From NCBI GenBank assembly GCA_013368315.1, contig JAACJM010000024.1:372001-436000 (forward strand): a DNA stretch of 64,000 bases. The letters are read 5' to 3'. The notes beneath the pieces are model-generated. The model had not been told where the DNA came from, ran no database searches, and saw only the letters and a list, made by a program, of their open reading frames with translations. This DNA comes from Tetrapyrgos nigripes (lineage: Eukaryota; Basidiomycota; Agaricomycetes; Agaricales; Campanellaceae). This document shows positions 3,602 to 46,600 of this stretch, in pieces (position 1 is the stretch's first letter; every line of letters begins with the position of its first letter). Made by a program: the position numbers and the translations under genes.

Positions 3602-5164
3602 CTATCGCACACGCTCCATCACATCATGGGCTGACAGCACTTCATCATAGACGTCCACGTCTAGCTTTAAGCTGAATGAGCTCAGAGACGTGACTCTGCC
3701 TGCTTGGAATCCAATGACACGACTTTCCAGCATGTTAGCGATGGGCTTGAGGAGCGCGAGCTCTTCAACTCCTTCGCCTTCAGACCACGAGCGTGGTAGA
3801 AAGACGCTAAGCGTAGAAAGGGAAGGAAGGAGTGGCCGAGCTGTGCTATTGGGATCAACTGGGAGATGCCGGAGGAAACAATCATCTGACATGGCATCGT
3901 CTTCAAACATTTCAACATCAAGCTGAGTTATGCTAGGGGTACTTCGCAGTACATCGAGCAATTCACCTTGATGAGGTCGCACGTATTTCATGGAAAGCCT
4001 TTGTAAACGATGGTTGGAACGGGACAGCATGGACGTAAGAGGTGCCAGCCTCAACAGATCGTACATGGTATCGTTTCCTTCAAGATCAAGGGCTTCCAAG
4101 CGAGGCAGGTGTAAATGTTTGAGGAGATCAAGATCGTCGGACTCCACAAGAGTGCTCAAACACAAACGGGAGATCTCAGACTGGAGGTAGCCGCCAGTGA
4201 TTGACAGAGTGGCCATGGAACTGGTTTGGAATTGGCCGTTCCATTGCAAGTCAAGCCTCAGCCTGTGCAGGTATTGAAGGTTCGAGCAAAGACTCGATGA
4301 CAGCACCTCCAAGTCCAGCGGTCGACAGATCACAGTTGTCAAAGAATCGATAGTAGAAGAAGCTAGGCCGAGCTCTACAAGGGCGACGTCAACGCCAGTT
4401 CCAGCATCAAGCCGTCGCAGGTTCGTAGCTGATTTGAGGACCTTGGAGAGCCCGTGGTAGTGTTCTCTGCGTAACGAACCCTTGATTTTCAATGAGTCGA
4501 GTCTCCCCAAAGACAGTACACAAACGCGTTCATTGAGCCACGAGAAGCACCCGGAACCCCACAACTGAGCAGATCTCCATTGAGCTGAGCAGCCAAGCAC
4601 CATCTCGAAGACGAGGCGTGTATTTTGCCTGTCCCTGTAATAAAAGAAGCAGCTGACATCCACAGTCAGTGGCATTTTCTTCACTACAGATAAGTGATGG
4701 GTTAAAATATGAACGTGCGCGCTAGAAATTTCGACGTCGAGATCTAGCATAATCGTGGGCCAGGCGTGTGGGGCGACTTGTCTCCAGAGAGAACACGTAT
4801 GGGACAGAGCGGTGAACGGTGCATAGACTCCATGGTTGCCTCTATCTGCTTCATGCTTGTCGTGACAGTAAAGAGCGAAAATCTTCTCCAACACCTCCAC
4901 GGGAAGTCGACGTATAGGATTAAGTAGGGAACGTTTCCTCTCCAAAGACGCCGCGGCGAGATTTCTCTGCTTCTCCAATACGTGTACCCGGTCCATGAGC
5001 AGTCGTATCTCCTCGTCATAGGCAGTGACCTGCTGATGCAAGGACTCTACGGAATCAAGGAGGCGGCCAGCGCCTGCTTTGGACAACGCATTCCAGCTAC
5101 GCAGCTGACGGGTATTCAGATCGAAGTCTTCGTCGATAAACATGATGATATCGTCGTTCAACAT
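3602..5164 (-). CDS. F-box/LRR-like protein (array copy 1)
   Basis: This is a single open exon of 520 residues. An N-terminal coiled coil (about residues 30-85, ending LEKQRNLAAASLERKRSLL) is followed by an F-box-like segment, IRRLPVEVLEKIFALYCHD, and then HTCSLWRQVAPHAWPTIMLD. A long leucine-rich C-terminal region follows. This coil plus F-box plus degenerate LRR layout is typical of the hugely expanded agaricomycete F-box family, whose members are predicted SCF ubiquitin-ligase substrate adaptors. The target is unknown. The copy is intact. It is the paralogue of the interrupted copy at 9175-10725, and the F-box-coding stretch of the two is nearly identical at DNA level. The start MLNDDIIMFIDEDFDL is supported by the parallel start in copy 2. 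Confidence 0.85.
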   Translation of the reverse strand: MLNDDIIMFIDEDFDLNTRQLRSWNALSKAGAGRLLDSVESLHQQVTAYDEEIRLLMDRVHVLEKQRNLAAASLERKRSLLNPIRRLPVEVLEKIFALYCHDKHEADRGNHGVYAPFTALSHTCSLWRQVAPHAWPTIMLDLDVEISSAHVHILTHHLSVVKKMPLTVDVSCFFYYRDRQNTRLVFEMVLGCSAQWRSAQLWGSGCFSWLNERVCVLSLGRLDSLKIKGSLRREHYHGLSKVLKSATNLRRLDAGTGVDVALVELGLASSTIDSLTTVICRPLDLEVLSSSLCSNLQYLHRLRLDLQWNGQFQTSSMATLSITGGYLQSEISRLCLSTLVESDDLDLLKHLHLPRLEALDLEGNDTMYDLLRLAPLTSMLSRSNHRLQRLSMKYVRPHQGELLDVLRSTPSITQLDVEMFEDDAMSDDCFLRHLPVDPNSTARPLLPSLSTLSVFLPRSWSEGEGVEELALLKPIANMLESRVIGFQAGRVTSLSSFSLKLDVDVYDEVLSAHDVMERVR

Positions 5165-5749
5165 GGTTCTACAGCTCTCTATAGCAGCTGGAGGCGAATT
5201 GGCTTCGAATTTCTGGTACTATTGTGAACTTGTGATAGTACTTCTTTGAGTTAAACAAGGAGAGAAAAGAGAACCAAGAGATTCCTTACAATTTTTGAGG
5301 GACACAGAATGATTCCCCACCAGGTTGAGCCTGACTAGGCCTGGCTAGTAGCAATATCGCAGTCCGAGATGGTGGTCCAGGTGTAGATTGGTCGTGTGTG
5401 GCCCCGGTGTGGGAAAAGTTACACCTGTCATTTTGTGGAGTCTTTTTTATTATGCTCTCCTCTGTTGACTGCGTGCAACTTGTTGGAGGCTACCTATCCC
5501 GTATGGAGAGCACGAGCTTCTCTTGAGTCTTGTTTACGAGGTACTTTTTGCACTTCGGTCCCTCTAAGTCCAGATTTGCTCACAGCTGATTGAAGAGACC
5601 CTTGTGAAACTGAACGACATCATTATCCTATCACAGGAGGAGGAGGAGGAAAGGAAAATTGTGCTGTGTCCTCTCAGTATGGTCAGGATAGTATCCGGTT
5701 ATGATAAGCGCGCCAATTTACTACTTTTTGAAAGTTGAATTGCATGCTA
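5165..5749. other. Intergenic region upstream of F-box copy 1
   Basis: It holds the 5' flank of the minus-strand F-box gene and runs to the left end of the first MITE-like element. A short purine run (gaggaggaggagg) occurs near 5637-5650. No gene was seen. Confidence 0.4.
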
Positions 5750-6002
5750 CACACCCAGCAGTAACCAATATTCCGTGGCCAGAAGTTAATTAGGAAACAT
5801 CAAATCTCTGGCGCTCGAAAACGGATTCGAAAACTTTAAATTTCCGAAGCCTCGGCAAGCGATCCGATTGGCTCGGATCCGCTTCCGATAAATTTCTGAA
5901 GCACGAAAACCTTTCGTTTCCAAATGAGTTTCCTGGTCCCTCGAAAACTTGACCTTTCCGAACTAACTTTTGGCCAATGAATATTGGTTAGTGCTGGGTG
6001 TG
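5750..6002. mobile_element. MITE-like element, copy 1 (253 bp)
   Basis: Terminal inverted repeats start CACACCCAGCA on both ends and extend inward imperfectly for about 45 bp. A CTA triplet flanks both ends (5747-5749 and 6003-6005), consistent with a short target duplication. The interior has no ORF and shares long stretches with the element at 6172-6405, for example cctcggcaagcgatccgatt. It is non-autonomous; the mobilising transposase is not in this window. Confidence 0.8.
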
Positions 6003-6171
6003 CTATTGAGTAGAAACCAGGTAGGGACGGCTCCAGTCCGAACATACGGATGCTACCCGTTTCAGAAGCAAGAACTTGGAGAGGTTAAGACTTGTTCGTG
6101 AGTTTCTTTTTCTGATCGACTTTCTAAACTTTGCGTGCTCGTCGCACCGTCTGTATAGAGGTAGTAAGCTA

Positions 6172-6405
6172 CACACCCAGCAGTAAGTAATTTTCACTGG
6201 TCGAAAGTTAGGTAAGAAACATGGTGCTCGAAAACTTTAAAAATTCTCGAGGCCTCGGCAAGCGATCCGATTGGCTCGGATCCGCTTCCGATAAATTTCT
6301 GAAGCACGAAAACCTTGAGTTTCCAAGAGAGTTTCCTCGTCCCTCGAAAACTTGACCTTTCCGAGCTAACTTTCGACCAGGGAAAATTACTTACTGCTGG
6401 GTGTG
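6172..6405. mobile_element. MITE-like element, copy 2 (234 bp)
   Basis: It belongs to the same family as 5750-6002. The terminal inverted repeat is about 40 bp with one mismatch and begins CACACCCAGCAGTAAGTAAT. AGCTA occurs directly outside both ends (6167-6171 and 6406-6410), a likely 5-bp target duplication. There is no coding capacity. The near-perfect inverted repeat suggests a younger insertion than copy 1. Confidence 0.85.
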
Positions 6406-6788
6406 AGCTAGCTGATCTTATACTGCCTCTGACGGCGATTCGGCTATATACCTTTCTTTCACTATTTGACTACCAGTCGGTCAGTACTACTCACGATTTT
6501 CTCCGTGGATTGTATGCTGAAAAAACCAATAGAATCCAATACCCCTGTATCTGAACGAACAGGTCCGAGCTGCGTCCGAGCTGCTTCACAGTTTGCTAAT
6601 CGGATAATCGGATACTTCAAAGCTTCCAATTCCTATACCCCGTCCTCTCAGTCAGAATAGCGAACAAAATTGATTCGCCTGTGCTGAGAGTAAGCCAAAT
6701 TACCTACAGCCCAATTATCCTTGACCTCATCTCACACAATGGCAGAAACTCAAGGCTACAAGCCCTTTCGAAGCATCTCAGTATACAG
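6406..6788. other. Intergenic region
   Basis: This is a non-coding stretch between the second MITE-like element and the first 130-bp direct repeat. No gene was seen. Confidence 0.4.
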
Positions 6789-6918
6789 TATTCTGTAAAG
6801 GATTAGGTCAGCCTGCGATGAGACCCAACCTCCAACTGGACCAAAAGGCCACAATATTCGGTACGTGTGAATACCGTCGCAGGCTCTATATATGGAGTAA
6901 GGGACGTGACCCTTACAT
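6789..6918. repeat. 130-bp direct repeat, copy 1
   Basis: The sequence from tattctgtaaagg to cccttacat recurs base for base at 7116-7245. It contains a 20-bp near-palindrome with GTAAGGG/CCCTTAC half-sites around ACGTGA (6897-6916), and a TATTC...GAATA dyad around ggtacgtgt. Confidence 0.9.
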
Positions 6919-13362: not shown

Positions 13363-14891
13363 ATGTCTCAACCACCACCCACTCATGCAAAAATACTCGT
13401 AGTCGGTGCAGGACCATGTGGTCTGACCACTGCTATTTCCTTAATCAAGAATGGAATCCCCATTCAGGACATTACCGTTGTTGATGGTGCTCTTCACGGA
13501 CAGAACACTTCGAGGGCTATGGTATTACATGCAGCTACTATGGAGGTACGTCGTATTGGCGCTATTCCCGATTACGTCGTTCAAAGCTCGTACTTTCTCC
13601 AGGCCCTTGAGTCCATTGGATGCGTGGACAACATCAATCTCTCCAGTATCCATATGCAAGGAATGCGTGTGCAAGACGGAAAGGGATCGCCTCTACTCAT
13701 CGGCGATCTTACCTCATTGCAACCATACACTAAATACGCATACTCGTGCAACATCAGCCAGGCTCATGTCGAAATTGAGTTGCACAAAGAGTTCGAACGA
13801 CTAGGCGGCCATGTCTTCAGACCTCTGAAAGCAATAGGGATGAAGCCACTTCAGAGTGGTTTACAAGTGACCTTTGAGAGTGGTGAAGTCATCACTGCGA
13901 AATATGTAGTTGCTGCAGACGGTTCTCGTTCTGTGGTATGTTTACTTCATACTCATAACCATTCTGTTCAAGGTCTCACATTCTCTTCCCAGATCCGTTC
14001 TGTCTCTGGAATTTCCTTTGCTGACCCAGACGGTATTGAGAAAGACAAAACCATCGACCCGAGAACATCTCAAATCGTTTTAGCAGACGTCTCTTTCGAT
14101 ACCAGCCTGGAACATGTATTCCCTACCGACCCTTATCTCGGCACCTTCTCCATCTCCAAAGACGGTCTCTTTCTCACTTCTCCTTTGGCACACCCTCAAG
14201 CCAAATCAGTCATCTACGGTGCCACGGACCCAATCTTCCGCATTGGGCTTTCTATTCCTCTAGATCAAGGAGAAGCGCCCTCTCATCCTGGGATAGAAGT
14301 GCTTCAGAGATACATAGACGAGCGGGGACCGATGGTCATTTCGTCTAATCCCTCGAGAAATCCCAACAAGCCTGTGCATCTGAAAGAGGTCTACTGGTCC
14401 TCGAGATTTAGGACGCATTCTGCCATTGCAGACACGTTGTTTAAGAGGATACATGGGGATACAGAGGAAGGGAGTGGAGGGATCGTGATGCTTGTCGGGG
14501 ACGCTGCTCATATTCATTCACCGGTGAGATTTGACCGTCTTTCCAGAGCGAGAATTTTAGCACTGACATTTTGTTGCAGATTGGTGGCCAAGGAATGAAC
14601 CTCGGGATCCGAGACGCCGTGGGCCTAGGAGCTGTTATAGCGAAACACATCCAGTCAACAACGAATGCGAACGCAACTGTTGATACCGACCTTCAAATGT
14701 TGCAAGACTTTGCCAAAGAGAGATACGAAAAGGCGTCGAGGCAGATCGCTATGACGAAGAGATTTGTCTGGTTTGTAGTTTTGTTGATGAATCCATGGTC
14801 TATACAGTATTGGGTTCTGTACATGTTAGGAAGTATTCCGTTCTTCAAGAGGTTGTTGATTTGGCAGTTGAGCGGACTTGGGAATAGGTAA
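13363..14891 (+). CDS. FAD-dependent monooxygenase FMO-C
   Basis: Four phase-0 exons (13363-13545, 13603-13935, 13993-14523, 14580-14891) give 452 residues. Motifs are ILVVGAGPCGLTTA, YVVAADGSRSV, and GDAAHIHSP with IGGQGMNLGIRDAVG. Introns 1 and 2 are each exactly 57 nt and contain no in-frame stop, so the unspliced DNA stays open from 13363 to 14598. The spliced product is chosen because the removed stretches have no counterpart in FMO-A or FMO-B and have good donor, branch and acceptor signals. The gene is only about 410 bp downstream of FMO-B in the same direction, and the pair probably arose by tandem duplication. Confidence 0.88.
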
Positions 14892-15250: not shown

Positions 15251-16779
15251 TTATTTGCCGTGCCCAAATCCCAATTTTGAACCCGACATCCTCAGACTAC
15301 CGTTGCGTTTATATTCGTCGCAACAACGACACACTCCTTCCAATGATGTATACATCCCAGCATATCCTAATCCACCTTTTTCTGGGGATAGCCTCGCACG
15401 CGAGTCGTCAACAAGGGCATGTAACAACGCCAAGTGAAAAGTAGATGGTTGTAAATTTAGCAGGTTACCTGCTAGTCCGGGTAACATCCTACCGATAAAT
15501 GACAGCAGGGGTGCCTTGGACGAGCGCAACAGATGTCTTGCGAGGTAGTATCTCTCGACCAAATGTGAGACCATCAACAAGGCAGTCGGTGACAGTGATG
15601 TATAGGTGAACTTGCCATCGTTGAAATGCTTGAGGGCAGCGTAGATATCAGTCCACCTCGGGGCCTGCCCTGGGTCCGTCACTGTAAACGCTTGTCCACC
15701 AATGTCAGGGTTTTTGCCGTCCTGTATGAATTCTATCAAACGCTGCTCGTAGCATAGATGCGCTTGAGAACAATTCTCCACGTATAACATGTTTTGGACC
15801 ATGTTCCCAAAAAAAGTAGGCGTTCCTTGCTCTTGAATGAAATATTCGAATAAGTCTGCGGCTGGGCCATAGATTGCGCTTCCTGGACGAAGGGTGCCCG
15901 TATGCATAGCCTTTCCTGTCGACCCAATTCTCTTATCAGCCTCTTTGACCAGCTTCTCGCCCTCCAATTTCGTGTAAGAATAGACCGTCATGAACTCCTC
16001 GACTCTCTTCGGCAGGACCGAGTCATCACTGACGACTTGGACAAATCGCGCAGGTTCCTTCTCCCAAGGCCACAACAACAAACGGGACGCGTGCTGCGCA
16101 ACAGAGGTAGAAGACGTAGAGATGAGGACACTTGCACCCACGGCGAGGGCAGCATCTATGACATTGCGTGTACCGTCAATATTGACTTTGGCGGATAACG
16201 GGACGAGGGAAGGATGTCTTTCGTAGAAACGGATGATGGCGGCGGTGTGGAAGACAGTGATTTCGGATGCAGGCTGATCATGGCCGACCTTAGGCCAAGG
16301 TGCGCTGAAAGCAGCCTTGACCTGTTCAGCGTCGGTCAGGTCGACAGGAAAGAAAGCGACTTCACTGGCTGGGCCAGAGGTAAAGTCGCGTCGATTAGAG
16401 GGACGTATGTCAATGTTACGGATGTACTTTGGTGACTCTCCACGTTCGAGGAGATGTCTGATGATCCATCCTCCGAGAAATCCAGACTAAAATGCATTGT
16501 TAGTCTGCTATCTAAATTTAAGAACTGGAAACGCACGCCTCCCGTCACAATGTATCGTCTACCGGTCTTCAAGGGAAGGTGATCCTGCAAAGAAACTGGG
16601 GAGCTCGAGAGTTTCTGGGAAACTTGCTCGAAATCTTTGGTTGTCCATCTCTTCGGTGAGATATCTTGTACTCTCGAGGTGACTTGCGTCAGCGCTCTGT
16701 CATTGGTGCGTAGGTATATCAACCAGAGTGCTACAAGTACACCAACAGCAAGCAGAGGAGTTAAATTTTCATGAAGCAT
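15251..16779 (-). CDS. 3-beta-hydroxysteroid dehydrogenase/sterol-4-carboxylate dehydrogenase-like protein
   Basis: Two exons (16779-16537 and 16486-15251) join to 492 residues. An N-terminal membrane anchor (LTPLLAVGVLVALWLIYL) precedes the NAD(P)-binding motif, split by the intron as VTGG|SGFLGGWIIRHLLERGE. The short-chain-dehydrogenase active-site pair appears as YSYTKLEGEKLVKEAD, and RPGSAIYGP and the downstream NMVQNMLYVENCSQAH segment are typical of the 3Beta_HSD/Erg26 family. Members oxidise 3-beta-hydroxy groups on sterols and related lipids at the ER. Its position next to three flavin hydroxylases raises the possibility of a small metabolic cluster, but canonical Erg26 is a housekeeping enzyme of about 350 residues and this protein is longer. 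A specialised extended SDR is an alternative. Confidence 0.8.
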
Positions 16780-34788: not shown

Positions 34789-37324
34789 CTACACCGCAGC
34801 CAGGAACGATGAAATTCGTGCAGTAGAAAAGTCATTATCCTCGCCTGACACAGGAACATGATCCAAGGACTGGAAATGGACAGAAGGAGAAGGATCTGGG
34901 GCTGCGGAAGCCTCTCCCTCAGCAAACACTGCAAGCAAGATATCGGAATCATGGTTGATAAACTTGGCCACTGACAAAAGTGACCTGGTGTCTTTAACGA
35001 CCAAGCTCGGATCCACTGCTGGTTCCTTCTTCACATTTGATTCGTCATCTGAGAGCCAGGAATCGTCTTCAGCTTCTGGCACCTCCTCACTACCATCCAC
35101 CTTCTCTATATCTCCGGTGCGTTTTTCTGATGCTTTGCCGCTGTAGAGCTTGTGCTTGAGATGATGAAACTTCTTCAGTTTGATGGGACCCTGCGCAGCC
35201 TTTGACCTAGCCTGTAAATGTTGAGAACGATCACTGAAGAAGAACGAAAATAGGACGTACAATTTTCTCCTCCTGACGATAAAATTGATAAACCATGGTC
35301 TTACCTCCCATCGTCTCAACGGACATGCTGCTACGGTTTGCTGGCGTGAAGGCAGTAAATGTGGAACCGGTGTGCTCATCTGCCATCGAATTAACTCGTA
35401 TAGCATAAAGCTTAATTGCAACATGCTGATGAGGATTCTTGTCAGTTTCTCACAGTCTGAAAATGATTTGCAACACGTACAGGTAGAATGACTGCAGTAC
35501 CATCATTAGTGAGACAGTTCCTCCACCAAATTATGATTTCCTCTGTTGAGGCGTCGCGTGGGAAAGGGTTGTTGAAAGGATATCGTCCTCGTGAATAGGC
35601 CTTGAGCTCTGTTGAGAGAGCATTAAGGAGGTCTTGAGCACGGCCTTTCCAAACCGTAAACTCGTTTCGTTGGCCATAGCGAGCTTCATTAGCAGCAATT
35701 TCGAAAAGATATTTGAATACAAAACAGTACAGGCGTGGAAGTCGGATGCCTGTTTCTTCCAAACGAGATACAGTGTCAGGGTCGGTGGGTTCAAGAGGAT
35801 TGATGTCGGAATCCTTGAAGAGGTCTGAAGAAAGATAGCCTGAAAGAAACAATGAGCGGAGATAAAATGAAAGGTGAAATAACAACGCACCTGCATTCAA
35901 GTAAGCAGCAACAAGATATACCCTGTTGTAAAGCCTTCCTCCTGGACCAAAAAGCTGCCCCTGGCGGCGGTTCAGAATGTCCAGAATGTCGTCTTGTACT
36001 TCTTGTGGGTAACTGTTATCCGAGTCCTTGACGATCCGTTCAATTTCGAAACATGCCGCATGCCAAAAAATAAACACATCAGCGGGATTTGCATCGTTGG
36101 ATTCCAAACAGGTCAACGACTTTGCAATTGGAAGGCCTACTGAAACCAGCCGCTCAAGATCATCCTCAAATTTCCGGGCCTTGAAGCTATGGCTTGTTGG
36201 CTGAAAGTAGTCCTTATAATCCTGCAAGAAAACATATAAAAGTTAATCAAAACTAGTGTATGATGCAATGTAATACACACAAATTCAAAGTGTTGAGGTA
36301 TCTGGAAAACTTTTTGGAGAGCTGGGAGTGTCCGCTGCACTGAAAGACTTGACAGAGTAATGGTTACAAATTGTGTCTTTCCGATAGACTCGAGACTGGC
36401 TCCGGATTGCAGTTGGTGTCTGGCAGCTTTTAACAAGGATTTGGCAGCGTGAGACCTTTTGAACGTCTTGAGAGTAGAACGGACAATCTTGATGGTCTGT
36501 AAAGTACTCGTTCAGTGGGTGGTTTGCATAACAAGTGTCATAGTACTCACTTCTTCAAAGTATTTTAATTTGACAATATCCTTGTTGGTGTTATTGAGAT
36601 GATGGCAAATATCAGTATGTGAGGATACTGTTGGTGCAGTAACTGGCGAGCAAGAAGCGTATTGCCTGTGCTATCACTGCAAGTAGCGCAGAAACACTCA
36701 GGACCGATTCTCTCAATCCACTGAGATGATGTAAGCAGCGATACCAAATTGGGAAGTGCCAGCTCACCGCTTTGACCAAGCCCTTAATTCACTCTGCAGT
36801 GTGCACTTCGTCGGTCGCATATCTCACTTCCAGCAAGTAAACATGCCTCTTCATGTTTGAAACATGAATGGTGAAATATGCCTCATCACTCTTGGTGCTG
36901 CCGTCAAATGATGCCGTCAAATTATGTTCATTTGCGAGCCTTGCAAGGACGGTTCTCAAGATTGCGACTTCTTGACCTGGAAGGAAGATTTCGTCAAGTC
37001 TAGTATGTGTTGGCATCTTGTATGTTCGGTCTGCAAGGATGAAGGCACGACGGAAGGATGGAGACTTGATTTGTGTTGAAGGCAGGGCCGAGAAATGTAC
37101 AGTGAGTTCTTTGTCAATCATGGTGTGTCGTTGCTCTCGACTGAGCTTTTTAGCTTCCTCCATCCAATTTCCCATTATCGGATTGTCGGAAACTGGCTTC
37201 ACTTTCTTCTGCTTCGGCTCTTTCACACTGTCCTGGTTTCCCTCCTGCAGCTGTTCTACCACAGTTGATGGTGCCTTACAAAGGAGGATTTTGTTGGCCT
37301 TCTCTAGTCTTGTGGTTTTCCATA
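34789..37324 (-). pseudogene. hAT-superfamily (DUF659-type) transposase, 5'-truncated
   Basis: Coding pieces on the minus strand read, in order: RLEKANKILLCKAPSTVV, the DUF659 start (LTASFDGSTKSDEAYFTIHV, LLEVRYATDEVHTAEW), the second catalytic region (IERIGPECFCATCSDSTGN, LHQQYPHIL), a helical insertion domain, and the hAT C-terminal dimerisation segment (IKLYAIRVNSMADEHTGSTF, PANRSSMSVETMG), with the stop at 34789. Introns of about 50-75 nt separate them. hAT transposases move by cut and paste with 8-bp duplications. The N-terminal BED zinc finger is not present: the gene abuts the left terminus of the helicase/DUF6589 element at 37325, so it appears to have been cut there. The open frame continues by chance for about 150 bp into that element. 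Not expected to be active. Confidence 0.7.
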
Positions 37325-37358
37325 GACGCGGGCAGCGCTGCAAAATTATGACATAATC
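37325..37358 (+). repeat. Left terminal inverted repeat of the helicase/DUF6589 element
   Basis: GACGCGGGCAGCGCTG plus about 18 bp. It is the reverse complement of 43795-43828 with few mismatches. Preceded by TA. Confidence 0.8.
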
Positions 37359-37495
37359 TCGCAGGCTCCCACACCCTTTAGCCTTAATGCGGTCAACATG
37401 TCTTTTGCTTTTACCATCATCTTTTAGCTCTCCTTCTCCGTACCCAGCCCTTATTTCGCTTTCATTACCCGCCAAACTTATTCAATTTCATCAAT

Positions 37496-39681
37496 ATGCC
37501 TTCAAAGCCTTCCTGGACGGACGCCTCTGGCTTGGAAGCCCTCAAACTTGTTGTATCTCGCTGTATTCCTCAATGGCCGAATGGACTTCATGACTACCAA
37601 GTAGTACCACTCTCTCTGGTTTTGAATCAAGAACACGTACTTTTCTTTACTGGCACTGGGTCTGGGAAGGCAGCGCTTTTCATGATACCACTCATCGTGC
37701 ACCGAGAGCTTGCTCAACATCCCGAGGATTATCCTTCCTTTCCTGTCAAGAAGGATGCTGTAGCGATCGTGATTACACCCTTGAAAGGCCTAGCAAGTAG
37801 TCTTGTAAGTATATAGTTATGATAATACATATAATTTGTTCTCATCCTTTCCTGAGATCCACGATGGTGAACGTTTTGGTCTACGCGGTCTTTCGTACTG
37901 CTGCGAAACCATCACAGAATATCGAGTTCGCAAGAAGCAAGACCTTGTCAAGCTCATCTGTGCATGTCAGTCTTGGGACTTGATTTGTATCGACCCAGAA
38001 CACCTCGCAAGTCCGGAATGGCGATGCATCATGCGGAACGAAAACTTTATCAACAATCTGATCCTCTTTGCTGTTGATGAAGCGCATATGATCTGGAGGT
38101 GGTCACCCAATTTCCGCCCTGTGTTCGGTGACATTGGAGCTCTTGCTTCAGGATTTCTGCCCCACAATGTTCCCATCATCGCTCTCACTGCTACCTGTGC
38201 ACCTGGTCGAGATACAGCAGAGCTTTGCCGGTCTCTTGGACTTGTAGGCGATCATTACCATCTAATTCGGCGCTCCAATGAGCAGACCAACATGCACATT
38301 TCCCTAGAAATCATGCAACGTGTACCTGGTCACCCTAAATATAGCCAGCTTCTCGAATATGTGCGCAGCGGCTGTAAAACTGTCATTCATGTCAAAACAA
38401 TTCCCACCGCATACGCCATCTATGAATTCCTTTGGGATTATATCCCCAAAAACTCGGATCCTACCATCAGTCGACTCCGTCGTATGAGGATGTATCATGC
38501 CCTCTGTCTAGACGACTATAACAGAGAGACTTTTCATTTCATTGACTCGGATCCGGAATTGCAGATTGTTATTGCAACTGTCGGATTCAGTCTCGGCATG
38601 AACTGCATGAGGATCCTCGATAGCATCACATATGAGTTTCCAGAAGACCTTGATGACTTCGTACAACAGGGAGGAAGAGGAGGCCGGGATCCAACTGTTA
38701 AATGTCGTAGTATTGCAATGGTTTCTCCCAATACTGTAAGGGCTGCTCAGGAATTTCAAGGTAAGTAATTTCGTTCATTGACTTTTCTTTTCCTATTACT
38801 TACTTCTATTGTTAGCATCAAATCAGAATACCACCACCGTATCGAAATCAAAAAAGAAGACTGCGGAACCTATGCAAGAAAGCAAGGCACGCTTCATTGT
38901 AGAGTCCACTTGTCACACCTCGTTTATTAACGGCTGGTATGGCAATTCTGGTGACTTCTCACTTCTTGATTGCAAAGAAGCTGGCCGGGAAGTCTTTTGC
39001 AATCTCTGTACCAAGCGCTATGGTATTTCCTACATCTTTGATCCACCGTCAACCTCACCTCGTCTTTCTTGGCTTCCCCTCGTGATCCAGACCCCCTCGA
39101 AATCGAAGCAACATCGCCAATCTGCAAAGCACCTGGGAAAGAAGGAAAGGATAAGTATGCGAAAGTGGTTAGTGGACTTTCAGGAGCTTGTTTGGAGTCA
39201 GTTCGTCCCAAAAATGGCTGGTCTCTGTAACGAGCCTATTGAGAGGTTCTTTTCAGATGGCATCATCGAGGATATCCTTGACAATTTCCTCATCATTGAT
39301 TCCCTCGACTCTCTCATTACCATTCTTAACCGACACTCATGGAAGTACATGGAATTCAAATCGGAGTCACTGTTTCGCCTTCTCACATCCTTCCAAACAT
39401 TTATTCAGACAGAACGAGAGGAAGTTAGAGCTCAAAGAAGTGGAAATAAAACAAAGACCCGGAGGAAACAGTTAGTATTGGATACAGATGACGAGGAAAA
39501 CAAGGCAGAGTCAAGTGAAGGACTAGACTCGGAGATATTCAATGAAGTCCCTGAACCGTCTAATTCCACACCAGCTCAACATCCCAGACCAAAACCTCAT
39601 GCACGCGCTCCTCGCAAATCACAGCCTACAGTAGCTGATTGGTCTGCTACTTATGGGCCTACAAGACGAAAGCGTAACTAG
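37496..39681 (+). CDS. RecQ-like superfamily 2 helicase of the element
   Basis: Three exons (37496-37804, 37857-38760, 38816-39681) give 692 residues. Motifs in order: Walker A-like TGTGSGKAALFMIP (about residue 47), VITPLKGLASSL (Ia), DEAH box in LFAVDEAHMIWRWSPNFRP, motif III ALTATCAPG, the C-terminal helicase domain with IVIATVGFSLGMN, and arginine-finger motif VI QQGGRGGRDP. A cysteine-bearing tail (CNLCTKRYGIS) and a basic C-terminus follow. The domain order is that of RecQ-like helicases encoded by basidiomycete mobile elements. Walker A has Ala where Thr/Ser should follow the Lys, which would weaken magnesium/ATP binding. The gene lies just inside the left inverted repeat and converges on the DUF6589 gene, with 29 bp between their stop codons. 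A role in element replication or excision is inferred. Confidence 0.85.
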
Positions 39682-39710
39682 GTGAGAGAAATAAAATATA
39701 TTTGCTATTT

Positions 39711-42700
39711 TTATTCATAACTTTCATCTGAACTAGAATGCCTATCGGAGTCACTACCAAGTGCGTTGAATACTTCCAAATTGTTTTGACTTCCTTCATC
39801 ACTCCTATCATCGTCACAAACTTCACTTTCAAAACTGATGGGTTCTTCATCTGACTCGACTTCTTTCACAGATGAACCCGAGGTTTCGTTATTGGATTCT
39901 ACGGTACTGTTTGATCCAGACTTGTAGTCGGATGACTGAGAAGCTTGATCGGGAGTATCGGATGGGAATAAAGAATCAGCAGACTCAGGATGTGAATGTT
40001 CGTGTACTTCAATAGTGGAATAGGAATGTTGTTTCTCCTCCTCAATTGCTGCGATGAATTTTGCGTGAGAAGATGTCTTCTTAATGAATGCTTGAAGTTT
40101 CCCTTCTCGGCCTAGTCGCCTGTACCCGACACTGAGTAAATCTGTTGCGATATGTCCCGGGTATGTCCGTCCAGATCGAAACAAGTGAAGTTCGGTGGCT
40201 TTGAACTCCTTCTGTAAGACGTGAATTTCGGGTTTGCTGGAAGGAGATGTGTGAGTGTTGGATCGATGCTTGAGTCCGAGTGCTGATTCCCAAACATGGC
40301 CAGATTTTCTGAAATTGTTCACATTGGGTCCGATGATGTTGCGATAGTAGGGTGAATCAAAATCTCCTCCAGACTTGTCCACCATCTCTTGAAGGCCGTG
40401 GTTGTTGTGTTCTTGCATAATATCTCTTTCTTGCCAAGCTGCACCAAATTTGACGAGGTAATTGTTGAGGATACCTGTGCGTAGTGCAGGAGACGACTCA
40501 TACTCCAACAGACAATGAAGCTCCAGAAGATACGATACATACTGCTGATGTGTAGAGCCACAAAACATGAAGATCCATATCTATACAAACAATTAGGATT
40601 AATATCGTCTTGACATCAATATGATTTACTTACTGTAAGCTGCTGCATCACTGTTCCAACGTCACCGTCCTTGATCGCATACTTGAGGAGCAACCAAGAG
40701 CCGAACTGCATCTTGAATAGGATGGAGTTTGCGAGACTGCGATCTCCGTCGAAAGTTTCAGGATCCTTTGACTTGGAAGATTCGTCATACTGTAATTGCT
40801 CCTCTGAAGGATTCAACACAGAAGACGAAAGCCATTGATTGCCACTCTTTATCTGCAGTTCCTTCTCTTTGAGCTCAGATCGGCGACGAGTAGAAAGGAC
40901 TCGCTCATAACCACCAATTGAAGCATACATCTGAATAGTCCGACTTCCAATAGATAACAAAGTATCAAGTGTCGGTAGCTCATTCTTCTGCGAAAGCTCA
41001 TGAAAGTGTGCCTGTAGGTCATCAACGCCAAGAAGGACCCTGAATAAAAGGTGAATAATTGTTTGTATGAGTGAAGAGTTGTCCACTAACCTCCAACAAT
41101 CAAGAATTTGTGCAATCCAAATTATTTCCAGGGCACGAATGGTAGGGTAGTGGTCACACTCCTTGAGGTTAGCCGGTCGTTTGAATCCGCAGAGCTGGTA
41201 AAGCTTAGATAGCGAAGACAGATCTGTAGATGTGCGTGGACCAAAATGTTCTTGTGCGATAGCTTTGACTCCTTTGTCCTTAGTATGCCAACCGTCGACA
41301 TGGCCAATTTTGTTGCGAAGCGTAGCACGGTTGCTTTTGGGAGACGTGGGTGTGAGATATTTTTGAAGATTCAAGAATGTTGCAAATGTGGCTCCATCAC
41401 CAGAAATAGTTTCCAGTGTTGTTTCATCAGCACCTCCAGCCGTAAATCCAACCTGCTCATCAAAATCCCTAAAACATCGTGCTAAACCATGAACCTCAAC
41501 CTCTTTCTCCGAGTTGGTACCAAGTGGTTGGGTGTTGGACGTTCGATCTTCTCGTAAGCGATGAAGGGCAACAGGCGATGAGCGAAAGCATTCAGAGATG
41601 GATTTTGAGTACAACGAGAGTTCAGGAATGTGGTCAACAAGTGTTTTGACAACATATAGGGTCTGCGAGTCGTGATGATTCTGCCAATTGACATGATTCC
41701 AGAGTTTGTCGATGGTTAATTTGGAACGCGGGTTCTTGGATATGCGGGAAAGATAATCCTTAAGATCCCATGCTCCTGGTGGGCAATCTTCGAGGTCGAT
41801 TTCTGTTGCCGCTGTACCAGTCTTCATCACTGTCTTCTGAAGAAGTCTGCCCCCCTCGTGAACAGTCAGATTTCGCTGAATGTTATCAAGAACGTATGTC
41901 TTCTTTACTTCATTACGTGAGGCTTCTTCAATGGTTGAACGTTGCATGTGTTCTCGATCTTTTTCTGTCAAGCTTTCGACCAATGAACGGACAGTTGTAT
42001 CGTTCGAGGCAAGGCCCATGCGACAGAGCCATCGTTTGATATTGATGTGGACCTGGCATGAGAAAAGTTGTACCCCAAGGTGTATAGGTAGGTATCCGTT
42101 GACGAATCGATTATGACCAACAACGAGAGCGTTAATAGCAACGAAAATGCGCTGTAGAATTATCAGAACCTAAGTACTCAGCAAATAATAGTATGTATCA
42201 CTCACGATCTCAGCTGGCCTATACTTTCGCTCTACAGGAGCACCTTTTCGACGAGGATTCGCAAGGTATTGGATGAAGCCGTGTAAGAATGGCGTCCGTC
42301 GTTTGAATGTAGCAACGGCTCGGGAAGGAGTATAGGAATGAATGTCGTGCCAAGTAACTTCACCAACAGGCATACGAGCAGGCTGATCCTCAGGAAATTC
42401 TCCAGGGTCAGAGTTTGTCGTTAAGATGGAGATATCTTTGAATGCCCGAGTTGCACAGAGTTGCGCCGCAAATGATGATATTGCGGGACGTGCATAAGGA
42501 ATGTTGGCTGGATCTCCATCCAGTTGGAATTGCTTTGCACACTCGCCTTGGGGATCTGAGCTGCGGTACGATGGTTGGCCATGTGGATGATTATACATCT
42601 TCCGAATGATATGAATAGCGTTGACAGATGAATTGCCCTGAAGAAATCGACAAATGGCGTCTCGATGATATTGTTGCTGGTAGTCTTTCTCGCGTTTGAT

Positions 42701-43045
42701 GCCCTTGTGCCAGAAGAGATACTGAAGAAACTCGCCAATAGTATCAAAGTCTTCGGAGATTGCAAGGAGATGCTTGTTGACATTTTCCAACTTCTCGAGA
42801 AGCTTTTCGAGGGAAGAACGTTTCCGTTTGTGTAATCGAAGGGGAGGGTGCTCTGGAATATTCTCTTTGGACAGGATTTGCGAAGGCTTCTGAGGATCAG
42901 GTCTCGGAGATGACCCTGAATGATGAGAAGTAGCTGTTGAAGTATCTTTTGATAGAAGGAGGATAGGGCTGTCCAGCGTTGTGTTGTAAGATGGTAATGT
43001 TAAGCAGGCATGGTACGGCTTGTACACTACTAAATGCAGTGGCAA
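39711..43045 (-). CDS. DUF6589-domain protein, candidate transposase/recombinase of the element
   Basis: Four exons are clear (about 43045-42206, 42151-41091, 41039-40634, 40580-39711), with phase-0 or frame-keeping joins, for roughly 1050 residues. The N-terminal part carries IGEFLQYLFWHKGIKRE, and the centre has YLPIHLGVQLFSCQVHINIK. The core has ISGDGATFATFLNLQKYL, KIGHVDGWHTKDKGVKAIAQ, HFGPRTSTDLSSLSKL, FKRPANLKECDHYPTIRALE and IWIAQILDCWR, the recognisable DUF6589 signature. The Asp in GDG, the Asp/His in VDGWH and later acidic residues are candidate metal ligands (inference). The tail is acidic and Ser-rich. DUF6589 is multicopy in mushroom genomes and has no proven function. The true start is unclear: no in-frame ATG was found at the 5' end, so another 5' exon is likely. 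Confidence 0.75.
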
Positions 43046-43310
43046 CTACGCAACTTACCTGTGGATAAAGAGTAGCTTGTAAGGCTTGTTAGAGGCTTGT
43101 AGAGCTATGTGGGTTAAGTATGAAACTTTTTTATTAGGAGGACTATCTACAAATCCTTATATACCTTTGAGGAGGTACAAATACATGTAAACTAATACTA
43201 GTGTAACAATAAGATTCTATTGTACTTGATAGAACAATGCTGGTTTCGTACACTATTGTCGTACTACACTTATTGTCTATATAATCTTATTGTTCTATTT
43301 ATAACTACTA

Positions 43311-43690
43311 CTATTGTTCTACATAGATGTTGTTAATGGCTGCAACTGAATGCGCCAATTCAACAGGTAAAGATGGTGAAAATGATTCCACCAGTGTATC
43401 GGGAGAACCGGGATCAATGTCCATGAAATCAAGCGGACCAAGTTGGCTATCATGGGTGCAGCCCAGAGTACGAGGCACGAGAGTATCTGTAAGCGAGTTT
43501 GGACTGGTGAACATGTTTGTAGGAGTAAGAGATGTCGCATTCATGTCAAATTGTGCAGAAAGAGGGGATATGGTGACAGTGGAAGCTGGTAAAGAGATGC
43601 ATTTGTAGGAGTAACAGGTAGAGCCGGTATATCTGCGAGAGTTAGGTAATTTCTCCGCGGTTTTTTACGTTTTGACGTGTTTTCTGACAT
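43311..43690 (-). CDS. Small accessory ORF at the right end of the element
   Basis: From the ATG at 43690 the minus strand reads MSENTSKRKKPRRNYLTLAD (basic, nuclear-localisation-like) for 49 codons. A second open frame overlaps (MNATSLTPTNMFTSPNSLTD..., DIDPGSPDTLVESF) and ends at 43311. Whether an intron or a frameshift joins them is unresolved; both contain a TPTN motif. It sits directly inside the right inverted repeat in the same orientation as the DUF6589 gene, so it may be the missing 5' exon of that gene or a separate small protein. Confidence 0.4.
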
Positions 43691-43794
43691 GGCGTGTTCA
43701 ATAAGATGCTTTCCGAGTGTCAAAGAGACCAAAATGAAGCTAGAGAGCGCGTCGACGATGGCAGATGGCAAGTAAGGGGTCGTGAGAACTTAGT

Positions 43795-43828
43795 GATTAT
43801 GTCACAACTTTTCAGCGCTGCCCGCGTC
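43795..43828 (-). repeat. Right terminal inverted repeat of the helicase/DUF6589 element
   Basis: Inverted match to 37325-37358. Followed by TA. Confidence 0.8.
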
Positions 43829-43999
43829 TATTGAATTCCTCCAGACTACATATACCACACGTAAGTGGTCAGACTGGTATATCGTCAGTCTGGCTACGCG
43901 AGACTAGCTGTATGGCCCCATACGCGCCCATGCGCTCCATACGCCTGGAGAAAATACTGATGCAACAGTCATCCACCGTGATCTAGGATTCGGAACATG

Positions 44000-46600
44000 A
44001 AAGAGTCTCTCCCCTGGGTTGAGTCTTTGCGCTAGAGTTCGACGATGATGCATTGTAATAGATCTTAAGTGAAGAAAGAAGAACTGTTAAATACTGCACA
44101 GTGCAGAAATCCCCGATTCTCGTAGAGAGAGGGGGGCTTGTGGGCCGAAAATCACCAAGATAAAAATGGCTTGGTAAGTACACTTTTCTCCCGCGCCACA
44201 TACGGTTAACTCTCGGACCGGTTTGACATAAATGACTTTTGAGTTCCTTTCCAGATCCCGCCTTGTTCTAGATTCTCCTGTGTCCCTCGAAACCTTGAAT
44301 TTGTTGAGAAGAATCGGGGATTGCGTGGCACGCCCGCCACGCGTCAAGCATAGCAAAAGGTACCGTCGTACAAGAAATCAAGCTCCGGTGGCTATGTCAA
44401 ATTCTCAACATTGTCCTCCTTCGTCATGTATCCTCATTCTCTTCAGCTACAAGGCTATGCACCAATCTGACACTGAAAGTACTAGAGGCATCTCCGGGGC
44501 ACTATCCACCTACGGTGAGTATACGGGCCGTATCCTCAAGTGGTGATTGGAATTCCTATGTAGTTTCACTTTAGCCAGCGTCCTTCCAAAGGAGCTGGTA
44601 CACAATATAGGTGCTATGAATCAGCCACTTCTCTAAATATCCAACCGTCGGATGGCTTTTCAGCCTTCCAGTCATGCTGATGCTGTCAAGATCTCAAGAG
44701 CTTCTCATTGTGATGGAAAAGTCTTCTCGATCGCTACGTTTGGTTGTTTTTGGTTTCATGGAGACAACATCAAGCGACAGCAGCATCTTCTCCCGTTGCG
44801 CACACTACCACACACGTGCCAGCATAAATTTAGACGCTCCCCTTCTCCACACAACTCTACAACCCCTACAACACTACGGCAGCCACCAAAGTAACATCGG
44901 GTCCAAGGGACAAGCAACGTCAAATCGGTGTTACAGTGCAGAATCAAATTGACGCTGGAATCAGAGCACAGTCCCCAGATGGCTGTGGATAGGTTGCTTG
45001 GGTATTCAGTGTACATTAAATTCGATGACATCCCAGCGCGACTGCAGTCAAGGCTGTACAAGTCCCTGCGAGCGCCAACCCGTAGAATTAGACAATCCCG
45101 GTATCGCCCACCATCAAACGTTACATTTCCCTTTCTTTTTCCATTGCCTTTACACTGTCATACATACCCCACCCGCACGAATGCCAAACCATGTACCCCG
45201 CGAGAACATACAACAACCCACATACCTACCTATCATATTCACACTATATTCCAAGTACAACCTCACGCATATTCTACGTATATCACTCACGCACACATAT
45301 TCTCTCTTACGCGCTCTGATAGAACCACGAACGGACGAACCACGTACAGTTTTCTGATTAGATAGTCGCTACCATATGCTCTGGCACAATGGCGAATAAA
45401 CCGGGATTAAAAACAAAATATAAATAAATAAAAAGCTGTACAAGATGTGCACTATGTTTTTTCAACCTTGTCGAGTCCTGAAGGCCTGACGAGCTAACTG
45501 ACGCTCAGCAGAATAGATAAAAGAACGCAACGCCTACTTAGGATGCTTTCTGAAACAAAAGAAAGCAATGGATCGCAATGACTTCGAGGAATCTCCGAAT
45601 TGCTGGAATTTGTGAAGAACGATTTCATTCTGAAACCTTTTCATCATCTCATCAGCGATGCAGATGTCAGTATAGCTCAGGGTCCAGGTAAATGGTCGAT
45701 CATTTGCTGCAGAGACGTGGTTCTGACTTTCTCCTTTCAGAGCGCTATGCAAATATCGGAAGTCTGGCGATCGAATCAGAAGTACGAAGCTGGCCTCAGG
45801 GTGGACGCAGAAGTATGTGCCTACCATCTTCCTGATCAGTTTTATCTTATGCAAGCCTCAAGGCAACGGAGAAGAAACCAAAGACGTAGGCCAAGGAGTC
45901 GAGGGCCTTCATACGAGACCAGACGTTTGTGGCTTTGGCTCTGCCTTACTTGTTGGAATTCATTATTCGAGCAGAGGATTATTCTTCGCGTCAAGACTTG
46001 TCACCAATAGGCCAGGTCAACTTTTTCACCGGAAGTACACAAGCTAGACCGGACAACTTCTCTCATTTGCGATATGCGGAGTGTGTGTGTCAATCTTGTA
46101 TTTGGCTCCGTAGCTAGGCTACCTGCAGTCTATTGACGTCTGCGCAGAGTTGTACTCCATGGGAGATGAATGATAATGTTCCGAGTGAGTCCGGACTGTT
46201 CTTGTCTACCACTGTCTAGATGTCGACTCCTCTCAAACGGCGAAACTGGAGGAAGCCCCCTCTGTGCTCCTTTTCATACTGGCTATATGATCGTTATAGC
46301 AGTCGGCGCATATGATAGTCTATGATTATGTACTCATGTCGACTTGTCGGAAAGTGCGAGTCTTGCCTCTTCCATCCCATATCCTTATGGACCCATGGTG
46401 CCGGTCTATCCTGTCCTCTTGTTCAGCTGTAGATGGTCATGGGCCTAACACGCTTTTTTCAGTGACCTCCACTACCGAAATGATGGTAAGCACTTCTGTT
46501 CTTCTGGTCTTTCTTTGCCATCTCAAACTTTGCTGTTAATCCGATTTTTCATAGATTCACACCAGATATAAGGTTCTGGAGATCTAAAGTACCCGACGGC
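44000..46600. repeat. Dispersed 2.6-kb repeat, copy R1
   Basis: The segment aligns in order with 59110-61842 and 62530-64000 (shared landmarks include ggctcagggtccaggtaaat, atatcggaagtc and gaggccttcatacgag-type blocks). It has an extra stretch of about 400 bp (45066-45475, pyrimidine/CA-rich) absent from the others. Plus-strand pieces read as exon-like blocks (QISEVWRSNQKYEAGLRVDA, then GNGEETKDVGQGVEGLHTRP, then DVCGFGSALLVGIHY) separated by intron-like sequence, so the repeat probably derives from a duplicated protein-coding gene of unknown family. No copy is clearly intact. Confidence 0.6.

Follow-up and report, generated by a model that had tools for sequence, protein, structure and literature searches.

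A DUF6589 and RecQ-like helicase element of Tetrapyrgos nigripes as a probable non-functional DNA transposon of the AcademH lineage

The window considered here is a stretch of 64,000 nucleotides from the agaricomycete Tetrapyrgos nigripes (contig C24, positions 372001-436000, of an assembly of 98.46 Mb in 587 contigs; C22, C107 and similar labels denote contigs of the same assembly), in which a RecQ-like helicase gene and a gene of the DUF6589 family are enclosed in one element with defined ends. This element is very probably a non-functional DNA transposon of the AcademH lineage, in the working relatives of which the DUF6589 protein would be the DDE (Asp-Asp-Glu) transposase. AcademH, of the Academ superfamily, was reportedly described by Kojima in Mob DNA 11:15 (2020). 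An earlier reading made from the letters of the window (the sequence-only reading) had proposed a new type of DNA transposon. This proposal has been given up, as a fungal DDE element with a RecQ helicase and duplications of 9-10 base pairs (bp) has already been described as AcademH, and the helicase, the 9-bp duplication and the fungal host of the present element all match the published lineage in the excerpted descriptions (PMC10045372, PMC6416283, PMC3627910).

The ends of the element are marked by TAGTCT and, further inward, by a subterminal inverted repeat (Table 1). The inverted repeat, of 54 nt at 85%, is the longest of the 32 inverted pairs that a search of 9.5 kb gave, the runner-up being of 28 nt at 75%, and the perfect 16-mer GACGCGGGCAGCGCTG noticed by the sequence-only reading is present in it. 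An 18-base end motif matches the genome at 64 places against 23 for its reversed control, and the composite subterminal motif GGGCAGCGCTGNNNNNTTATGACATAATC at 70 places against none (both with up to 3 mismatches). The earlier limits, 37325-43828 with TA at both flanks, belong to a real element and fall short of its termini: sequence outside them is conserved in other copies up to TAGTCT at both ends, hence the element spans 37305-43906, with its true ends 20 and 78 bases farther out. The TA is internal and is not a target duplication, other copies showing one of 9 bp. TAGTCT and the subterminal repeat are common to both ends and the stretch between them differs, the right end being about 60 bases longer than the left with a palindrome among the extra bases. 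No Rfam family was found above threshold in 37000-44300.

Further copies with the same ends and matching empty sites, which the sequence-only reading had suggested looking for, both exist in this assembly, in support of a DNA transposon whose ends are defined. Searching the genome at the DNA level with the element as query gave a C22 copy with 96-99% identity across three pieces and the middle deleted (2659 bp), a full-length copy on C107 with 68-69% identity, and one more full-length copy on C300. Flank repeats were tested for 94 TAGTCT..AGACTA pairs at 86 loci; eight of them showed exact repeats, all of 9 bp, out of lengths from 5 to 13 bp examined. The eight cases represent six distinct elements (C22, C30, C66, C107, C255 and C300). 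In the examined loci 18 distinct copies hold both inner motifs, and in 14 of them TAGTCT/AGACTA lies outside both; C32, C218, C464 and C148, with both inner motifs and one outer TAGTCT missing, were left out of the 14. With the best-fitting TAGTCT chosen wherever an end offered several, the 9-bp duplication is perfect in six of the 14 copies, matches at 8/9 in three (C21, C49, C368) and at 7/9 in two (C157, C158), and is absent from three, namely C200 and a second C30 copy (4/9 each) and the window copy.

The empty-site search, in which joined flanks were compared with the genome, covered the C22 and C300 copies. The C22 site has uninterrupted relatives at 97% (C228, C5, C41) and 89% (C64), each with a single CGTCCAACC (the C228 version differs by one base), and the C300 site has them at 99% and 97% (C25, C3), with a single CGTGCAAAC at the site. 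Hence, the 9-mer was duplicated on insertion. The C22 insertion is bracketed by a 27-nt inverted repeat at 93% (L069:210-236 and 4151-4177), and the sequence hit is a dispersed repeat in its own right, perhaps a further transposon.

Pairs of the 70 subterminal motif matches within 11 kb comprise 21 head to head, none tail to tail and one on the same strand, and 12 of the 21 are spaced 378-422 bp, which are short non-autonomous copies of about 0.4 kb. The match to the amino terminus of the helicase begins 127-144 bp inward of the motif at 8 loci, a nearly fixed spacing. One head-to-head pair (C318:37475-48942) spans 10.6 kb and encloses both DUF6589 and helicase; another same-strand end lies 0.9 kb beyond it, possibly from nested copies. 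Another copy of 448 bp (C158, L019 1089-1536) reaches on its right only to the inner TAGTCT, lacks the palindrome and still has 7/9 flank bases matching; the inner TAGTCT is perhaps able to act as an end.

There are only two sizeable genes in the element, and the inward-pointing RecQ-like helicase and DUF6589 genes named by the sequence-only reading are both present. Their intron positions are predicted from splice signals, backed by in-frame joins and alignment to relatives. The helicase protein matches Pfam PF00270 (DEAD) with an expectation value (E) of 2e-13 and NCBIfam recQ_fam TIGR00614 with E 4e-27, below the curated cut-off, and its nearest solved structures in the PDB are RecQ, WRN and BLM. 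Three copies (window, C22, C107) have GTGSGKA as the Walker A motif and the C300 copy has GTGSGKS; because of the GTGSGKA variant, several copies may be inactive, to judge from sequence. The DUF6589 protein matches PF20231 with E 1.6e-85 and nothing else in Pfam at E <= 1, and its closest relatives are proteins of Dendrothele bispora and Marasmius, at 74% at best, which points to an agaric host, probably a marasmioid one. DUF6589 was found in the window protein and in all of 41 relatives scanned with Pfam, no other family recurring in more than two relatives. The named DUF6589 matches listed belong to genera that we take to be Agaricomycetes and none falls outside this class, with the reservations that two matches (P0090, P0153) are nameless and that a word-based search can miss distant relatives.

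The two genes are also paired elsewhere in the genome. Matches found exon by exon and merged at a 1.5-kb gap give, among the matches listed, 54 DUF6589 loci and 67 RecQ-like helicase loci. A helicase lies within 5 kb at 20 or more of the 54 DUF6589 loci, a lower bound, against 0.37 expected, a figure that presumes uniform placement, several of the 20 pairs being copies of one family and not independent. Eighteen of the 20 pairs are convergent. At the remaining 34 loci no helicase was detected within 5 kb at the sensitivity used. A DUF6589 locus of a different clade on C328 (L072:363-3479, minus strand, and 5370-6819, plus strand) is accompanied on the opposite strand by two weak RecQ-like matches (E 0.005 and 0.13), of which the weaker retains an intact Walker A GTGSGKT in the 10 kb read, so that 20/54 may be a lower bound. 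A generic end search recognised no ends around the C328 and C189 DUF6589 loci, and one design for every DUF6589 locus can therefore not be claimed. On C80, two helicase-DUF6589 modules (C80:5394-9614 and C80:72121-76341) have opposite orientation and the same 556-bp gap, which suggests an inverted duplication.

The predicted fold and the conservation of the DUF6589 protein support an RNase-H-fold DDE recombinase. When the AlphaFold models of two DUF6589 relatives were compared with RNase-H-fold transposases, as the sequence-only reading had proposed, structural re-alignment placed DDE transposases first (Hermes, P element, ISCth4, RAG1), with sequence identities of 7-11% in the alignments with Hermes, P element and RAG1/Transib. 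The predicted models resemble hAT (Hermes), P element and RAG1/Transib, the best structural matches, in the RNase-H fold and in a large helical segment inserted ahead of the last acid. In the alignment of 157 rows one D/D/E set hardly varies, and the putative catalytic acids would be the equivalents of D270, D431 and E726. The aspartate of the GDG motif is the likely second acid, and E726 likely corresponds in the models to the final acid in the active sites of Hermes and the P element, as judged by the ends of the aligned ranges and not by coordinates. Foldseek alone gave no significant match, the second model finding the P element no higher than rank 4 (E 1.7) and again at rank 10 (E 3.1), and no transposase came up when PDB sequences were searched with the DUF6589 profile.

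The earlier proposal of an RNase-H-like recombinase with GDG and VDGWH positions in its active site is thus supported by the predicted fold and the D/D/E conservation, the GDG aspartate included, but not as regards VDGWH. The VDGWH aspartate, at what would be the first position of a C/DxxH motif, is E in 96 rows, A in 29, Q in 18 and D in 1 of the 157, and is therefore unlikely to be catalytic; the histidine of the motif is kept in 149 of 151. A C/DxxH motif between the second D and E marks the hAT/P/MuDR/Kolobok/Dada group in the excerpt of PMC9587614.

The assignment to AcademH rests on a comparison by description (helicase, target duplication, host and transposase class), in which no difference has appeared. 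In the excerpted text, AcademH makes target duplications of 9 or 10 bp and AcademX of 3 or 4 bp, linked to a helicase and a nuclease respectively (PMC10045372). Fungal Academ elements had recognisable domains such as PF00270 and recQ_fam in 1,568 of 1,938 copies and were frequently annotated as host genes, according to an excerpt of PMC6416283; a RecQ helicase in Academ is mentioned in part of PMC3627910, hosts of AcademH are given as Basidiomycota, Ascomycota and Mucoromycota in part of PMC10799480, and putative non-autonomous MULE and Academ elements are stated to be widespread in Marasmius oreades in part of PMC8290104. The present element family has the 9-bp duplication, a RecQ-type superfamily 2 (SF2) helicase of the RecQ/DEAD kind found in fungal AcademH (the PF00270 and recQ_fam matches), a basidiomycete host and a predicted DDE transposase. 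AcademX does not fit: the duplications are of 9 bp and in neither protein did Pfam find a nuclease domain.

It is quite unlikely that the element belongs to a separate, unnamed superfamily, with a DUF6589 transposase unrelated to Academ and with the RecQ helicase and the 9-bp spacing gained independently. Pfam lists DUF6589, a large family of mushroom proteins, as of unknown function; in sequence it could be matched to no known catalytic family of transposases, and Academ was compared by description only. However, the RecQ helicase, the 9-bp duplication and the fungal host all agree with the excerpted AcademH description, and the element, with only two sizeable genes, offers no other candidate for the counterpart of an AcademH transposase. 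The absence of a third sizeable gene also speaks against DUF6589 as an accessory or passenger, with the helicase-DUF6589 pair as cargo and the recombinase encoded by the host or by another element. Many short copies do hold neither gene and were moved by enzymes from elsewhere, yet the fold, the D/D/E conservation and the recurrence of the pair at 20 or more of 54 loci make a passenger very unlikely.

A RecQ helicase also occurs in a second fungal DDE lineage, KolobokH, which is found only in fungi and whose gene content is alike in outline (PMC9587614, in excerpt). The same excerpt gives TTAA as the Kolobok target duplication and places the KolobokH helicase downstream of the transposase domain, whereas the duplications here are 9 bp of varied sequence and the helicase has a gene of its own, which converges on DUF6589 in 18 of the 20 pairs. 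A KolobokH identity is hence highly improbable, the 9-bp duplications speaking against it. Among other known systems, no MULE or Transposase_mut domain was found by Pfam in the window protein or the 41 relatives, and MuDR/MULE was rejected on this ground; no IS256 domain was found either, and the element differs from bacterial IS256 (the group of the ISCth4 structure) also in having a helicase. Helitrons use an HUH replication initiator and make no target duplication; the 9-bp duplications speak against them, and Pfam found no Helitron domain. The duplications of hAT and P elements are 8 bp and that of Transib is 5 bp, in contrast to 9 bp here.

In working relatives, the DUF6589 protein of this AcademH-like element would bind the ends, consisting of TAGTCT and the subterminal repeat, would excise the element (or nick it), and would then join it to target cuts 9 bp apart, presumably by cut-and-paste and not by replicative movement. 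The RecQ-like helicase would be an accessory that probably opens the DNA strands at the ends or in the joined intermediate; the sequence-only reading had put forward a part in replication or excision. Short copies of about 0.4 to 2.7 kb, lacking one or both genes, may spread by the same ends with enzymes supplied elsewhere.

The palindrome is seen at the right end only. When folded as single-stranded DNA and compared with shuffles, the last 117 bases of the window element give a z of -2.7 and the last 62 a z of -1.8, the C300 and C107 right ends give -4.3 and -3.2, and the window left end gives -1.1. The inner 7-bp arms of 12 right ends occur as seven distinct pairs, in which 47 of 49 positions are complementary, a fit equalled in 14 of 20000 shuffles of partners; the 12 are those matching one regular expression (the non-matching C66 right end was dropped and the L035 arm was set by hand) and are copies related to one another. 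A hairpin is only one possibility, because dimeric protein binding or gene conversion can also keep palindromes. The unequal ends and the RecQ helicase allow a DDE route in which one end is handled single-stranded and folds to a hairpin, helicase and hairpin together deciding which end is processed first, but this route is rather doubtful.

The window copy has had its own history. Its flanks, GGCCTTCTC and GCTGTATGG, form no target duplication. On the left, the flanking sequence is 96% identical to repeats on C11 and C73 as far as exactly 37304, where C11 and C73 continue differently; this repeat (36905-37304) is also present at 71-75% on five further contigs or places, and the open reading frames (ORFs) in the left flank area, 36789-37475 and 35442-36227 (both minus strand), have no Pfam match. 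The right flank starts inside a different dispersed repeat, of which all six inspected copies run outward as ...GGCGGCC(G/A)CATG. The segment 43907-43962 is a 56-bp tail of this other kind of repeat; it begins precisely at the right border and recurs at several places with 100% identity. As the flanks come from two different repeats, two insertions share one element here, through ectopic recombination or misassembly. An assembly chimera of two element copies, to which the abrupt change of repeats at 37304 and 43907 and the lack of a shared 9-mer point, is quite possible, though somewhat less likely than not; if two copies had recombined ectopically in the living genome, the result would look identical. 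This alternative bears on the history of the window copy and not on the element family.

The window copy is also damaged. Its DUF6589 5' exon carries a frameshift relative to C22 and is interrupted by a solo long terminal repeat (LTR), and the copy therefore cannot be autonomous. The separate small basic ORF of the sequence-only reading is most likely no third gene, being the frame from ATG 43690 (minus strand), that is, the DUF6589 5' exon cut off by the solo LTR. This LTR is about 95% identical to dozens of genome sites, several of them paired about 6.7 kb apart like a full LTR retrotransposon.

A link between DUF6589 and the AcademH transposase was not found in the open-licence literature searched, a set excluding the AcademH paper. 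Such a role, with homology of DUF6589 to the published Academ transposase implied, and the conserved palindrome at one end only are possibly new. If DUF6589 is the AcademH transposase, many 'hypothetical proteins' of mushrooms become recognisable as mobile elements and repeat masking improves, a direct practical effect on annotation because annotation often takes Academ copies for host genes (PMC6416283, in excerpt). The ends, the 9-bp spacing and the short derivatives would then offer a defined substrate to probe the use of a RecQ helicase by a DDE transposon.

Table 1. Features of the AcademH-like element, in positions of the window
Feature	Position	Strand	Remarks
Whole element, AcademH-like DNA transposon	37305..43906	.	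6602 bp including the 368-bp solo LTR; ends set against the C22, C107 and C300 copies carrying 9-bp target duplications
Left end: terminal TAGTCTTG and subterminal repeat ...GACGCGGGCAGCGCTGCAAAATTATGACATAATC	37305..37358	+	54-nt inverted arm, 85% complementary
RecQ-like SF2 helicase gene	37496..39681	+	exons 37496-37804, 37857-38760, 38816-39681; 692 aa; Walker A GTGSGKA
DUF6589 (PF20231) gene, putative DDE transposase	39711..43690	-	ATG 43690 exon (LTR-interrupted), ..42206, 42151-41091, 41039-40634, 40580-39711; broken here
Solo LTR in DUF6589 5' exon	42998..43365	.	TG...CA ends; GGTAA on both sides
Right subterminal arm of inverted repeat	43795..43848	-	inverted-pair search
Right-end palindrome, possible hairpin	43841..43893	.	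none seen at left end; compensatory arm changes
Right terminus ...CGAGACTA (TAGTCTCG read inward)	43894..43906	-	comparison with other copies

Elsewhere in the window, an ORF with a FAD-binding domain (13363-14598, plus strand) adjoins an ORF with a 3-beta-HSD domain (15251-16141, minus strand).
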